Assembly: GCF_030813915.1 (NCBI RefSeq)
Contig: NZ_JAUSUJ010000015.1
Span: 1 to 64,000 of the forward strand
DNA length: 64,000 nucleotides
Direction of reading: 5' to 3'
From: Rhodoplanes tepidamans
GTDB taxonomy: Bacteria > Pseudomonadota > Alphaproteobacteria > Rhizobiales > Xanthobacteraceae
The first letter of the stretch is position 1. Each line of letters starts with the position of its first letter. The notes beneath the pieces are model-generated. The model was given only the letters and a program-made list of their open reading frames with translations. It was not told the DNA's origin and did not search any database. Below, piece by piece: positions 45,343 to 49,893 of this stretch. The translations under genes and the position numbers were made by a program.

Positions 45343-45597
45343 TCAGCCGGGCGTATCGCCGGGATGACGGGCCGGACCCGGCCCGGACGGGGCGGCGCGG
45401 TCCCGCATGCGCCGCCGGCCGGCCCGGATCATGAGCACGCCGCCGGCCGCGACCGCGGCACTGGTCGCCCACAGGAGGACGAGCCCGGGGTCGACCAGGG
45501 ACCGGGGGTCGGTCAGGCCGAACGCCACCACGAAGGCGCCGGCGCACAGGCCGGGCAGCAGCAGCACGAGGCCGACCAGGATCATCAGCACGGCCAT
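45343..45597 (-). CDS. Small two-helix membrane protein A, unknown
   Basis: 84 aa: MAVLMILVGLVLLLPGLCAGAFVVAFGL, a second helix GLVLLWATSAAVAAGGVLMIRAG, and a basic Pro-rich tail. Looks like a paralogue of the gene 9 bp upstream (protein B): both have a LPxGLC turn in helix 1 and an Arg-rich segment after helix 2. Not recognised. Confidence 0.6.
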   Translation of the reverse strand: MAVLMILVGLVLLLPGLCAGAFVVAFGLTDPRSLVDPGLVLLWATSAAVAAGGVLMIRAGRRRMRDRAAPSGPGPARHPGDTPG

Positions 45598-45606
45598 GGG
45601 TCTCTC

Positions 45607-45888
45607 CTAGGGGGCGCCGGAGGGTCCGCCGGGATCGCCGGAGCCCTGCCGGCCCGGCTCGCCGGCCGCGCGGCGCAGCCGCCGCGCCCCGAACAGCACC
45701 AGGACGCAGAAGATCCAGCCGATCAGGGCGCCGCCCAGGAACACCACCGACAGGCTCTGCCCGACCGGGTCCTTCTCGAACAGGAGCCCGACCCCGCCGA
45801 TCGTGAAGAAGGCCGAGCACAGGCCCGACGGCAGCGCCAGCAGGCCGATCAGCACGAAGAGGATGAAGTTCCGGCCGGTCTCGGTCAT
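45607..45888 (-). CDS. Small two-helix membrane protein B, unknown
   Basis: 93 aa: MTETGRNFILFVLIGLLALPSGLCSAFFTIGGVGLLF, a second helix SVVFLGGALIGWIFCVLVLFGARRLRRA, and a Gly/Pro-rich tail. Shares the LPxGLC turn and layout of protein A, so the pair probably arose by duplication and works as a heteromeric membrane unit. Function unknown. Confidence 0.6.
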   Translation of the reverse strand: MTETGRNFILFVLIGLLALPSGLCSAFFTIGGVGLLFEKDPVGQSLSVVFLGGALIGWIFCVLVLFGARRLRRAAGEPGRQGSGDPGGPSGAP

Positions 45889-46084: not shown

Positions 46085-47497
46085 TCATCTCATCGCTCCC
46101 CGCCGCGCCCGGATCGCCTCCGCGTGCCCGTTCCGGTAGAACAGGTTGTAGGTGTCGAACGGGATGATCCTCCCGTCCGGCGTAACGAAGTGGATGCAGG
46201 AGCGCTTGACGCCGCCGAGGCAGAAGCTGAAGCGGTCCATGAACGACACGATCGCCACCCGGAAGACGTTCTCGTAGCTCAGCCCCTCCGGCACGGTGGC
46301 GCGCGGCAGGCAGCACAGGAACTCGGCGAGCCGCTCCGGCGCGTTCATGGCGCCCGAGGAGAGCGAGAACAGCTCGACGAATGTCTGCTGGAGCGCCGGC
46401 TGCTTCTCGAAACTGATGGTGTTGGGCACCACGGCGACCAGATCCTCGCGCGACAGCATCGACGTGACCGGCAGCACGCGGTCGCCGCTGCGCAGGCCGT
46501 AGGCGATCGCGATCGTCTCCGGATTGCACGGCAGCGGGATCATGTCGGCCTCGCCGAACAGGCCCGAGTCGGCGATCACGCGGCGCCGGATCTCGGAGAG
46601 CACGATGCGGTTCCGTCTGGCGTCGAAGCCGTCGTTGCGGCCGGCGTCCTGCACGGGCTGGAACGTCACGCCACGCACGCACTGCCAGGTCAGCGCGTGC
46701 TTCACCAGCGCGCCGATCTCGTGGTCGTTGACGCCGCGCTTCACGGTGACGACCAGGGTCGTGGAGATCCCGTGACGCTCCAAGTTCTCCAGGGCCTGCT
46801 GCCGGATGCGGCGAAGATCGGCGCCGCGCAGATCCATCAGGGCGTCGCGCTCCAGCGAATCGAACTGCAGATAGATCTCGAGCCCGCGCCGGCGCTCCGC
46901 CAGGCGCGCGCAGAAGTCGGGGTCCTGCGCCAGCAGAAGCCCGTTGGTGTTGACCATGACGTGGCGGATCGGCCGCGCCCGCGCCGCGTCGAGGACGGCG
47001 AAGAAGTCCGGATGCAGGGTCGGCTCGCCGCCGGAGATCTGCAGCAGGTCCGGCTCGCCCTCGCTGGCGACCAGCGCGTCGAGCATCTGCTCGATCGTGG
47101 CGAGCGGCAGATGCACGGGCCGCTGCGGCGACGATCCGGCGAAGCACACCGGACAGGTGAGATTGCAGTGCTCGTTGATCTCGATCAGGGCCAGGCAGGA
47201 ATGCTGCTCGTGGTCCGGGCACAGGCCGCAGTCCCAGGGGCAGCCGTGCTCGGTGCGGCTCTGGAAGGCGAGCGGCGTGTCGCCCGGCTTGATGTAGTCC
47301 TTGCAGCGCTTCCAGTAGGCGGCATCGGTCGAGACCAGGGTCGACTGGACGCCGTGGGTCGGGCAGCGCTTCTCGTAGAAGACGTCGTCGTCGACGATCT
47401 GGATCTTGGCGGGCACGAGCTCCAGGCAGGTCTCGCACAGCGACGTGGTCTGGCCCCAGAAGACATGGGGTCTAGATTTCCGCAGCGGCGCGGTCAT
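46085..47497 (-). CDS. Cysteine-rich radical SAM protein, tetraether-synthase (Tes/MJ0619)-like
   Basis: 470 aa from the ATG at 47497 (GGAG 6 nt upstream; ATG 47503 also possible). Radical SAM CX3CX2C at C111/C115/C118 (HCNLTCPVCFA), with SGGEPTLHP for SAM. There are many further cysteines: C21-x2-C24 and C45-x2-H48 (rubredoxin-like ligand set), a second CX3CX2C at C86/C90/C93, C101, and late ones (FLCCLPR, FCLGGVKRSCIHFVTPDGR). This arrangement, as I remember it, is that of archaeal Tes (MJ0619 family), which joins lipid tails by C-C bonds. It overlaps the Lgt-like gene by 26 bp, so a lipid or lipoprotein substrate is likely. Confidence 0.75.
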   Translation of the reverse strand: MTAPLRKSRPHVFWGQTTSLCETCLELVPAKIQIVDDDVFYEKRCPTHGVQSTLVSTDAAYWKRCKDYIKPGDTPLAFQSRTEHGCPWDCGLCPDHEQHSCLALIEINEHCNLTCPVCFAGSSPQRPVHLPLATIEQMLDALVASEGEPDLLQISGGEPTLHPDFFAVLDAARARPIRHVMVNTNGLLLAQDPDFCARLAERRRGLEIYLQFDSLERDALMDLRGADLRRIRQQALENLERHGISTTLVVTVKRGVNDHEIGALVKHALTWQCVRGVTFQPVQDAGRNDGFDARRNRIVLSEIRRRVIADSGLFGEADMIPLPCNPETIAIAYGLRSGDRVLPVTSMLSREDLVAVVPNTISFEKQPALQQTFVELFSLSSGAMNAPERLAEFLCCLPRATVPEGLSYENVFRVAIVSFMDRFSFCLGGVKRSCIHFVTPDGRIIPFDTYNLFYRNGHAEAIRARRGAMR

Positions 47498-48197
47498 CCG
47501 CATCTCCGGCGTGTTGCGCGGTCACCAGCATGGCCACGGCCCAGGCCACCAGCACGGCGGAGAGCAGGTGGAAGACCGTGAACGGTCCGAGGATCGTGCC
47601 ATAGGGCTTGAAGAACTCCCAGACGAAGCGCTGCAGCCCGTAGAAGCCGACCGCCAGGTAGAATCCTCGGTCGATCCAGGCGGCGTCGCGGTTCGACACC
47701 TTGATCACGTAGACGAGCGCGAAGGCCGCCATGGCGGCGCTCTCGTAGAGCTGGACCGGATGGCGCGGGACGCCGTCGCCGAAGTCGTGCGCCCAGGGCA
47801 ACGCGGTCGGCGTGCCATGGGTGAAATCCTCGAGGCCGGCGAGATGGCAGCCGATGCGGCCGACCGCGACGCCGACGGCGAGCGGCAGGGCGAAGCGCGC
47901 GCCGGTGCGCAAGGAGACGCCGGTCGCCTGCTTGTAGAGCTCGACCCCGAGGATCGCGCCGGCGATGCCGCCCTCGATCGATCGGGCGACCGCCGGCACG
48001 CCGGAGACGATCATGTTGAGGGTGCCGAACAGCACTGCGCCGGTGCCGGCCCCGAGGACCAGCGCCGCCACATAGGCGAGCTCGGTGGTGACCGGCGGGA
48101 AGGCGATCTTCCGCACGCGGGTCAGCCACAGGGCGGCCAGCGCCGCGGCGCCCCAGGCGAGAAGGTCGAAGAGCGTGTGAAGGGCGAAGCCGGACAT
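47472..48197 (-). CDS. Lgt-like membrane protein lacking the catalytic HGG motif
   Basis: 241 aa from the ATG at 48197 ([15 protein letters not shown]); longer starts to 48299 are possible. About seven transmembrane helices. It keeps Lgt hallmarks: [18 protein letters not shown] in place of the GRxGNFxNxE signature, and [10 protein letters not shown] near the end. The HGG motif, with the catalytic histidine of E. coli Lgt, reads EGG ([13 protein letters not shown]). Probably binds phosphatidylglycerol-type lipids but does not perform the normal lipoprotein transfer. Its 3' end overlaps the radical-SAM gene, giving a tight two-gene unit. Confidence 0.8.
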
Positions 48198-48309: not shown

Positions 48310-49893
48310 TCACGCCCCTTCGGCCGGCTTCGTCATGCGCAGGATGGTGGCGACGGCCGCCGGGTCGGGCACCGGACTCGGGCCGGGCCCGACGGCAGGC
48401 TGTCCGCCGGCGAGCTGCCGGCGCCGCTCGGCGACCGCCGCGCGGGCCTGATCGAAGGCGAGCGTAAAGGCGGCGAGCGAGGTGTGGTCGATGCCGTCGC
48501 GGCTGCCCGGCAGCAGCACGCGCGCGAGGATCTCGTCGATCTCCCTGTCGAGCGCGGCGAGCGTCGCGAGATCCTCGGCGGCGTGTGCGCGTCCGATCAG
48601 GGCGAGCAGGCGCTCCAGCAGCCGCTGGCGGCGCGAGCGGGTGTCGGCGCGGAAGTGGCTCGCCAGCCAGGCGAGTCCGGAGCCGACGCCCGACAGCATC
48701 ATGGCGCCGATGTAGATGACGTCGCTGTAGCGGTCGAAGAAGCTCTTCTGGTCGTCGTCGATATAGGCGGCGGCGCCGGGATGCGCCGGCACCGCGGCGT
48801 CGCGGTCGGTGTCTGGCTTCTCGATGCGGGCCGCCATCGGGAATTCCGACGACAGGACCTGGCGCACCGCGAAGATCTGTCGGGTCAGGTCGGCGACCGT
48901 GTCCTCGGGCACGCTGCGGCGGGCGACGAGATAGTGCTTGAAGCCGATGGTCTCGACGGTCTCGGGCGGCTGCGGCGTCTGGCCGCCGAACACGCCGGCC
49001 TTCAGCTCGGCCTCCTCGTAGACGGGGGCGCGGGCCGCGATCGCCTCGGAGGCGCCGATCTCCAGGAAGGTCGGGCCGTCGCGGCCGTTGCTCGCCGCAG
49101 CGACGACGCCGGCGACGTGCGGGCTCGCCACCGGCCCGAGCGCCAGCACGGCGTCGATCGGGGCATGGCGCAGCGCGGTCGTCACGTCGCGGGCGTCGAG
49201 CGGCACCACCGTCACCTTCTCGATCGGCACCTGATACTGGCGCAGGATCGCCTCCAGCACCTCGCGGTCGCCCATGCCGGGGCCGACCAGGCCGATGCGG
49301 CGGCCGGCCAGCGCCTCGATGCTGTCGATCTTCGGCGGCGCCGGGGGCGTCTGGGCGGCGGGCGGCTTGGCGCCCCGCTTGCGGCGGGTCGCGGTCTCGG
49401 CCGGCGGCGCGGCTGGTTTCGGCGGGCCGGCGGCGAGCGAGCCCTCGGCCGGCACCAGAAGCACGGCGACATTGTCGTGCATCACCACCACGGCCTGGCC
49501 GGAGGCCGGGAAGGCGACGTCGCGGCGGACCACGGCGAGGTCGACCTCGCGGTTCTGCAGGGCCCGGGCCGCCGCGGCCGGTCCCTCCTTGATCACCGGC
49601 ACCAGCCGGACCGTGGCGCTGCGGTCGCGGGCGAACTGCTGGGCGATCGCCTGGACGAGCCGGGCGTCCTCGCCGGCCGCCGGCCCGACCGCGATGCGCA
49701 GCCGGCTCGGCCGGTCGGAGAAGTAGAACGCGGCTGCGATCAGGCCGGTGGCGAGAAACAGCCCGATCAGCAAGACGAGCGGGGTCTGGCGCAGCAGCAC
49801 GCGCAGACGGCGCCGGGTGCGGCCCGAGCGAACGCCCGCCGCCCGGTCGCGGGCCACCCCGGCGGCGGCGATGCGGCGGAGCGGCGACGGCAT
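48310..49893 (-). CDS. TAXI-family (TRAP-associated) solute-binding-like membrane protein
   Basis: 527 aa from the ATG at 49893. One N-terminal transmembrane helix (about 33-55, [22 protein letters not shown]) precedes a periplasmic TAXI-type domain: [24 protein letters not shown]..., [67 protein letters not shown] Pro/Ala/Lys-rich insert interrupts it near residue 190. A second transmembrane helix ([21 protein letters not shown]) and a coiled C-terminal cytosolic segment follow. No DctM/DctQ permease is near, so it is more likely a sensor or orphan receptor. Confidence 0.8.

Follow-up and report, generated by a model that had tools for sequence, protein, structure and literature searches.

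What reaction would bring together a radical S-adenosylmethionine (SAM) enzyme and an Lgt-like membrane protein encoded by overlapping genes? This question is raised by a locus of Rhodoplanes tepidamans (contig NZ_JAUSUJ010000015.1), which was analysed within a stretch of 64,000 nucleotides (the window, i.e. the whole stretch at its full length). An earlier note had described there, at 46085-48197, two genes overlapping by about 26 bp, and had taken them for a candidate lipid or lipoprotein modification system. The two genes were borne out, on the minus strand, and their open reading frames (ORFs) share 26 bp. The system is larger than these two genes, as it includes a third co-inherited component, i.e. 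small membrane proteins with a G-x-C motif. Together, the pair and the small proteins point to an uncharacterised modification of membrane lipids or of lipid-anchored proteins.

The locus

The features on which the analysis relies are the following:

47472-48197, minus strand: gene of the Lgt-like membrane protein, 241 residues, identified by Pfam LGT and residue alignment
47847-47849, minus strand: codon of the invariant cysteine of the Lgt-like protein (GRIGC; Asn146 of E. coli Lgt), Cys in 89/89 Lgt-like relatives and Asn in 17/17 canonical Lgts
46085-47497, minus strand: gene of the Tes-like radical-SAM protein, 470 residues (alternatively 472 residues from an ATG at 47503)
45607-45888, minus strand: gene of a small membrane protein of 93 residues with a G-x-C motif (PSGLCS, Cys24)
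45817-45819, minus strand: codon of the G-x-C cysteine of the 93-residue protein, a candidate modification site
45343-45597, minus strand: gene of a second small membrane protein, 84 residues, with a G-x-C motif (LPGLCA, Cys18)
45544-45546, minus strand: codon of the G-x-C cysteine of the 84-residue protein, a candidate modification site

The start of the radical-SAM gene at 47497 was preferred over the ATG at 47503 because a GGAG stands 6 bases ahead of it. Residues marked P0001 below are numbered on the 472-residue form from 47503, i.e. two higher than on the 470-residue form. The pair does not consist of chance ORFs, as Pfam recognises Radical_SAM (5e-21), Zn_ribbon_HMPTM (1e-16) and LGT (5e-19) domains in it. 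Both small-protein genes stand directly downstream of the radical-SAM gene.

Co-inheritance of the two enzymes

The loci compared were those of the best 80 of at least 576 relatives obtained in a genome scan, low-GC loci being read as ORF lists. Two further samples, i.e. 398 genomes of the phylum and 149 genomes of the same family, were even draws from larger groups. The candidates scored per genome at first look numbered 4 and 6 in the two profile searches of the 398 genomes, and at most 37 in the small-protein search.

Among the family genomes, the radical-SAM gene (at least 74 % identity) was found in nine, and the Lgt-like gene (at least 59 %) adjoins it in all nine. Strong matches to both enzyme profiles fell in the same 12 phylum genomes, the Lgt-like profile scoring at least 164 bits in pair genomes versus at most 99 bits for other Lgts. 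The Lgt-like gene is present in 77 of the 80 loci, always on the same strand, 75 times upstream and twice downstream of the radical-SAM gene; in the other three, fewer than 330 bp of contig precede the radical-SAM gene. When measured on the longest ORFs, 64 of the 75 upstream pairs overlap or lie within 100 bp of each other, and five are more than 300 bp apart (3.2 kb at most). The earlier note had stated that its reading would fall if the two genes did not adjoin in related genomes; they do adjoin there.

As labelled, the 80 loci come from cultured Pseudomonadota, Cyanobacteriota and Brevibacillus, and from uncultured Planctomycetota, Omnitrophota, Melainabacteria and Methylacidiphilales. A plasmid collection yielded similar pairs from Persicobacter (Bacteroidota, L071), with overlapping genes, from Nonomuraea (Actinomycetota, L074), where the genes are 13 bp apart by called starts and overlap by longest ORFs, and from Mycobacterium branderi (L073), where two small genes lie between the pair members. 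The distance matrices of both enzymes agreed (r 0.85 over 64 pairs thinned from 89, with 0/1000 permutations as high), partly because of shared species history. As the genes are linked, the view that the Lgt-like and radical-SAM proteins are partners is strongly supported.

It could be argued that the two genes, one for a bacterial Tes homologue and one for a degenerate paralogue of Lgt, merely share an operon without joint purpose. Each family is indeed known singly, according to the excerpts of the papers to which we refer here and for most citations below: bacterial Tes homologues have been reported (PMC8941075), as has a second Lgt carrying Y26H and N146C (MSMEG_5408, PMC13251419). Such coincidence is nevertheless highly improbable in view of the co-occurrence in 12/12 and 9/9 genomes, of the linkage across several phyla, and of new invariant residues under constraint in both proteins.

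One family genome (G043) contains a radical-SAM remnant of 64 aligned residues (L069:9284-9475), located between typA and an NMT1-like gene, and neither an Lgt-like nor a small-protein match was found in that genome; the entire unit seems to have been lost there naturally.

Small membrane proteins at the locus

Small membrane proteins of about 60-110 residues, often in tandem, adjoin the pair. Their most constant feature is a G-x-C cysteine, placed either inside a hydrophobic helix or at its end. When 26 of them, nearly all labelled proteobacterial, were aligned, the glycine was conserved in 26/26 and the cysteine in 25/26, with a mean column identity of 26 %. Across 73 G-x-C sites, the residue following the cysteine is A, S, T or G in 66, and these residues are usual after lipoprotein cysteines. 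Other types were encountered in other groups, i.e. a cyanobacterial and Brevibacillus type whose cysteine sits in the last helix (as x-G-C or x-A-C in some members), a third type in actinobacteria, and a Persicobacter protein of 59 residues whose gene overlaps the radical-SAM gene.

A profile of the small proteins was searched against the 149 family genomes. All nine pair-positive genomes matched at the locus with E 2.1e-15 or better, one of them (G012) with six copies, and every match in these genomes lay at the locus except for a weak extra one in the congener G117. The 140 pair-negative genomes gave four weak, unlinked matches (7.6e-5 to 6.1e-4) and no others. Since some of the sequences behind the profile come from these loci, matches at the locus are expected, and the near absence elsewhere is the informative part. 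In the 80 loci, profile matches were found near the pair in 60 and nowhere else within them. A membrane G-x-C occurred in 93 of 198 small hydrophobic ORFs within 2.5 kb on the same strand versus 8 of 289 elsewhere, an enrichment whose significance is inflated by the relatedness of the loci. By profile or motif, 71 of the 80 loci have a small-protein neighbour.

Between the window and G117, the two small ORFs differ at 13, 8 and 26 and at 19, 15 and 35 first, second and third codon positions respectively; the third-position excess means that the window ORFs behave like coding sequence. Pfam recognised no family over its cut-off in seven small proteins (best E 0.0033), and NCBIfam gave no match up to E 0.01 in five, so that membership in a known family was ruled out for seven by the former and five by the latter.

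Relation of the radical-SAM protein to Tes and TrsS

The earlier note had compared the radical-SAM protein with the archaeal tetraether synthase Tes (GDGT-MAS, MJ0619), and it proved to be a relative. In a PDB sequence search it chiefly matched the M. jannaschii enzyme (7tol, E 4.7e-64), and a 10-sequence family profile reached 2.3e-87 against the same entry. A predicted model (mean predicted local distance difference test score, pLDDT, 85.6) was matched by Foldseek to 7tom (E 6e-39) and 7tol (9e-39) with a template modelling (TM) score of 0.79, the best match after these two coming only at E 2e-10. Its Pfam domains are Radical_SAM and the HMPTM zinc ribbon.

The cysteine motifs listed in the earlier note (C21, C24, C45, H48, C86-C93 and C111-C118, numbered from the 47497 start) are all present. 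The rubredoxin-like set (C23, C26, C47, H50 in P0001 numbering) has exactly the CX2CX20CX2H spacing of Tes. The first CX3CX2C (C88/C92/C95, with H98, P0001) is the counterpart of the Tes N-terminal auxiliary cluster (C73, C77, C80 and a histidine), and the second (C113/C117/C120, P0001) is the SAM cluster. Conservation was assessed in an alignment of 90 core-type relatives, two actinobacterial proteins, Tes, two TrsS (572 and 578 bits) and three methyltransferase-linked proteins. All three sites are kept in 87-89 of the 90 core sequences, the remainder being gaps, among which we counted three short or broken ORFs that lack the first motif (LP_L115, LP_L126, LP_L139).

Tes and the core relatives differ in their C-terminal parts. 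The columns of Tes C455 and C470 hold S/T and D/E, respectively, in 90/90 core relatives, i.e. cysteine in none. The C338 column, beside an indel, has cysteine in 8/90 and threonine in the window protein. From the alignment, C338, C455 and C470 may be read as cluster ligands of Tes. The Met439 column has methionine in 10/90, and the Tyr459 column F, I or M in 90/90; in Tes, Met439 is a labile cluster ligand, and the Y459F and M439A variants remain active (PMC9433317). The core relatives have instead a new C-terminal set, C326, C397, C398 and C436 along with H438 (P0001), invariant in 90/90. The actinobacterial type (L073:6271-9434, L074:4834-7395) is the reverse of the core type, as it is without the N-terminal auxiliary cluster and keeps the C-terminal cysteines.

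NCBIfam placed the window protein nearest to TrsS (NF045646, 301 bits over residues 18-460, cut-off 490), followed by Tes (NF045702, 267 bits, cut-off 450). As controls, the Tes cut-off was passed in 3 of 14 control genomes and the TrsS of the genome itself reached 572 bits on NF045646. Being below both cut-offs, the protein belongs to neither equivalog. In a midpoint-rooted tree of 35 of the 92 Lgt-linked rows with one Tes, two TrsS and three methyltransferase-linked proteins, 33 core rows fell on one side of a branch (support 98/96), with Tes, TrsS and the methyltransferase-linked rows outside and the actinobacterial rows on long branches. Rhodoplanes elegans DSM 11907 has a radical-SAM protein at 88 % identity. 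In the same tree, the radical-SAM gene of a Planctomycetota metagenome-assembled genome (MAG; L111) lay within the alphaproteobacterial part, perhaps through gene transfer or misbinning. A plain Tes orthologue was accordingly rejected on its sub-cut-off score, its changed C-terminal cysteines and its separate clade; unlike Tes, moreover, the radical-SAM protein here has an Lgt-like partner.

Could the pair belong to a cofactor or metalloenzyme maturation system? TrsS, which a review counts among the selenoproteins (PMC13188914), is the best NCBIfam model by bits, and the true TrsS gene of this genome (G000:C1:429829-430785; L070:9794-11242; 572 bits) belongs to a cassette that also encodes MoaA and a DVU_1556 family methyltransferase and recurs in a congener (G009). 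The window protein misses the TrsS cut-off, lies on a separate branch and has other neighbours, which makes this explanation very improbable. The TrsS orthologue was ruled out by the score and by the presence of a true TrsS elsewhere in the genome, and the cofactor maturation role by neighbours unlike the TrsS cassette. The earlier note had named grouping with a cofactor-maturation family as the outcome that would overturn its reading; the protein stands outside the known ones.

The chemistry could alternatively concern the small protein itself, in the manner of ribosomally synthesised and post-translationally modified peptides (RiPPs): the radical-SAM enzyme would modify it, e.g. by forming a thioether from the G-x-C cysteine, with the Lgt-like protein as membrane receptor or acyl transferase. 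The small, multi-copy, cysteine-bearing neighbours fit, and Foldseek also matches the RiPP maturases SkfB (TM 0.38) and SuiB (TM 0.36), lower than Tes. Tes and TrsS are by far the best matches, however; Pfam shows no SPASM domain up to E 0.1, the several SPASM-type NCBIfam models that match weakly all stay under cut-off, and the 40 top neighbour clusters listed, which were annotated in part, included no recognised recurrent export gene. We consider this explanation distinctly unlikely.

Altered active-site positions in the Lgt-like protein

The motifs PRHPVQLYE and GRIG, and EGG in place of HGG, are present in the Lgt-like protein as the earlier note had stated. It passes the Pfam cut-off for PF01790 (69.1 bits, gathering score 24.9) and reaches none of those of the NCBIfam Lgt models (34.7/428, 30.8/334 and 26.3/118.9 bits, score/cut-off). 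Its family profile matches E. coli Lgt (5azb, 3.9e-14), and the single sequence gave no PDB match up to E 1.

Residues were compared in an alignment of 89 Lgt-like relatives, E. coli Lgt and 17 canonical Lgts. The E. coli enzyme needs Y26, H103, R143, N146, G154 and R239, and H103 varies among Lgts (PMC13251419); R143 and R239 lie at the phosphatidylglycerol site (PMC4728403). R143, R239, Y235 and E202 are retained in all 89 Lgt-likes and H196 in 88. N146 is replaced by cysteine in 89/89, and Y26 by histidine in 86/89 (3 gaps). At the H103 position histidine occurs in 0/89, where V (33), E (32), L (11), A (10), I (2) and M (1) are found; N149 is replaced and E151 mostly so. In canonical Lgts, Y26, H103 and N146 are intact in 16/17 (1 gap), 17/17 and 17/17, versus 0/89 at each in the Lgt-likes. 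The corresponding window residues are His7 (Y26), Glu75 (H103), R114 and R190 (R143 and R239) and Cys117 (N146). Canonical Lgt was ruled out, and the genome has a canonical copy elsewhere (G000:C31).

A close described parallel is MSMEG_5408, the second Lgt homologue of M. smegmatis, which shares Y26H and N146C (PMC13251419). It differs in being reported alone, in the excerpt that describes it, and presumed to have low Lgt activity; the comparison is made through this published description, and the word 'radical' occurs 0 times in the main text of that paper.

A membrane-lipid synthase would be another way to combine these enzymes, i.e. the radical-SAM protein would couple or alter phospholipid acyl chains presented by the Lgt-like protein, with the small proteins as scaffolds or regulators and not substrates. 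Several points agree with it: the nearest solved relative is Tes, the Lgt-like protein keeps the phosphatidylglycerol site, and synthesis of branched glycerol dialkyl glycerol tetraethers (brGDGTs) has been proposed for the 456 bacterial Tes homologues reported (PMC8941075). The protein encoded upstream of the radical-SAM gene in 8/80 loci, with major facilitator superfamily (MFS) and PlsC-type acyltransferase domains in the tested member (L148), would fit phospholipid turnover. Two Tes C-terminal cysteines are however lost in 90/90 with a new set gained, and the tandem, variable, cysteine-bearing small proteins that co-occur with the pair are left unexplained. Such a synthase is possible but, in our view, doubtful.

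This synthase is the idea of the earlier note, in which the Lgt-like protein presents a lipid whose acyl chain the radical-SAM enzyme modifies or cross-links. The Tes relationship, the phosphatidylglycerol-site arginines and the partnership speak for its outline. Tail coupling as it was put there fares less well, since the state of the C338, C455 and C470 columns means that plain Tes-type tail coupling cannot be assumed; judged on these residues, tail crosslinking appears possible but weakened.

Bacterial Tes homologues have also been recorded in 281 Black Sea MAGs, with function unconfirmed (PMC11868695), and were mentioned as cases still open once the structure of Tes was known (PMC9433317). 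The bacterial membrane-spanning lipid synthase Mss likewise couples lipid tails in bacteria, and differs, as far as its description in excerpt goes, in being discussed with Ger/PlsA and not with an Lgt-like partner (PMC13274423). In open-licence PubMed Central, no paper was found that ties bacterial Tes homologues to an Lgt-like partner or to small cysteine proteins, and the excerpts of a graspetide paper (PMC8939145) describe no radical-SAM/Lgt-like pair.

A putative three-part modification system

We tentatively favour, at somewhat less than even confidence, a three-part membrane modification system made of the small proteins as acceptors, the Lgt-like enzyme and the Tes-like radical-SAM enzyme. 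The small membrane proteins with a single conserved cysteine (G-x-C, sometimes x-G-C or x-A-C) would be the acceptors; they are read as substrates because they are small, often tandem and variable, with one fixed cysteine. The Lgt-like enzyme would bind a phospholipid and either attach a glycerolipid or acyl group to that cysteine or hold it there, and the invariant Cys and nearly invariant His of its cavity could carry the acyl or diacylglyceryl group. The cytosolic radical-SAM enzyme, with its several Fe-S sites, would then remove a hydrogen atom from a carbon that is not activated, probably one of the lipid chain, and form a C-S or C-C bond. The product might be a radical-modified lipoprotein-like species or a tail-crosslinked lipid species. 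The components, their motifs, their linkage and their joint inheritance are observed, and the acceptor role, the lipid substrate, the sequence of the reactions and the type of bond are inferred from them.

A lipidated G-x-C cysteine followed by a radical step on the chain is favoured because it joins the facts with the fewest extra assumptions. The role on a lipid chain is supported by Tes, the nearest solved relative, which has such a fold and lipid-chain chemistry. The co-inheritance of the small G-x-C proteins makes protein lipidation at least as likely as a purely membrane-lipid function.

Several observations weigh against this proposal. (i) In Lgt, the active site is presumably on the periplasmic side (PMC4728403), and the radical-SAM enzyme is cytosolic, which leaves a direct hand-over unexplained. 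(ii) The canonical lipobox ([LVI][ASTVIG][GAS]C) fits 0 of the 73 G-x-C sites. (iii) Homology between the small-protein types of different phyla cannot be demonstrated, and an exact G-x-C is missing from 12 of 85 profile matches. (iv) Nine of the 80 loci have no small protein by profile or motif (L097, L102, L129, L134, L140, L144, L149, L153, L154), of which L129 lacks any upstream sequence, L097 extends just 1.6 kb downstream, and L102 has an LTLGC protein. (v) The Tes cysteines C455 and C470 are replaced throughout the core relatives, as described above. (vi) With the Lgt-like model (pLDDT 92.5), Foldseek gave no PDB match that reached E 0.001, and the 50 matches listed of 124 include no Lgt; this result may speak against a simple fold claim, or may reflect a limit of the method for membrane-helix bundles. 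(vii) The partly functional Lgt of Leptospira has N146C (PMC13251419), so that this replacement is not by itself a sign of a new reaction; together with MSMEG_5408, it also means that a lost transferase activity of the Lgt-likes cannot be concluded. (viii) Biochemical or lipid data on the system were not found.

A more specific version of the three-part proposal, which we regard as unlikely, is a new form of protein lipidation, in which the radical-SAM and Lgt-derived enzymes would link the intramembrane G-x-C cysteine covalently to a phospholipid tail at one of its unactivated carbons, or else to a diacylglyceryl group, the tail of which the radical-SAM enzyme would then couple; many bacteria would then possess tail-anchored or membrane-spanning lipoproteins.

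Further genes around the pair and related cassettes

An NMT1-like protein is encoded upstream of the pair in the window (48310-49893), and a relative stands beside the pair in 7 of 9 pair-positive stretches and also occurs in G043. A PhoD-like phosphatase (tested in L064:12269-13840) lies upstream of the Lgt-like gene in L064 (directly), L065 and L066. The upstream protein found in 8 of the 80 loci forms one cluster (L128, L131, L132, L136, L138, L146, L148:2864-4762 and L151), seven loci being labelled betaproteobacterial and L138 only Proteobacteria; L148 was the only member scanned for domains.

Outside the pair-bearing loci, a methyltransferase gene directly follows the Tes-superfamily genes L072:7986-9569, L075:5004-6455 and L067:2260-3732. 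It is annotated as such in L072 and L075, and in L067 it is DVU_1556-like (132 bits, cut-off 155). The three Tes-superfamily proteins are below both the Tes and TrsS cut-offs, i.e. they represent other uncharacterised subgroups. In two plasmid matches of the superfamily (M. vanbaalenii, Halorarius), a methyltransferase adjoins in place of the Lgt-like gene.

Biological significance

Bacterial Tes homologues, counted in hundreds, have served as a guide to which organisms of soils and seas might make membrane-spanning lipids, as seen in excerpts of PMC8941075 and PMC11868695. We have defined a widespread subgroup of the Tes superfamily, set apart by its own partner enzyme and by candidate acceptor proteins; for this reason, members of the subgroup should not be taken as evidence for tetraether lipids without a test. 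Our findings also suggest a setting in which second copies of Lgt that carry Y26H and N146C may be understood. Finally, if the small proteins are indeed acceptors, the system would produce a lipid-protein linkage of a kind not found in the literature searched (open-licence PubMed Central).

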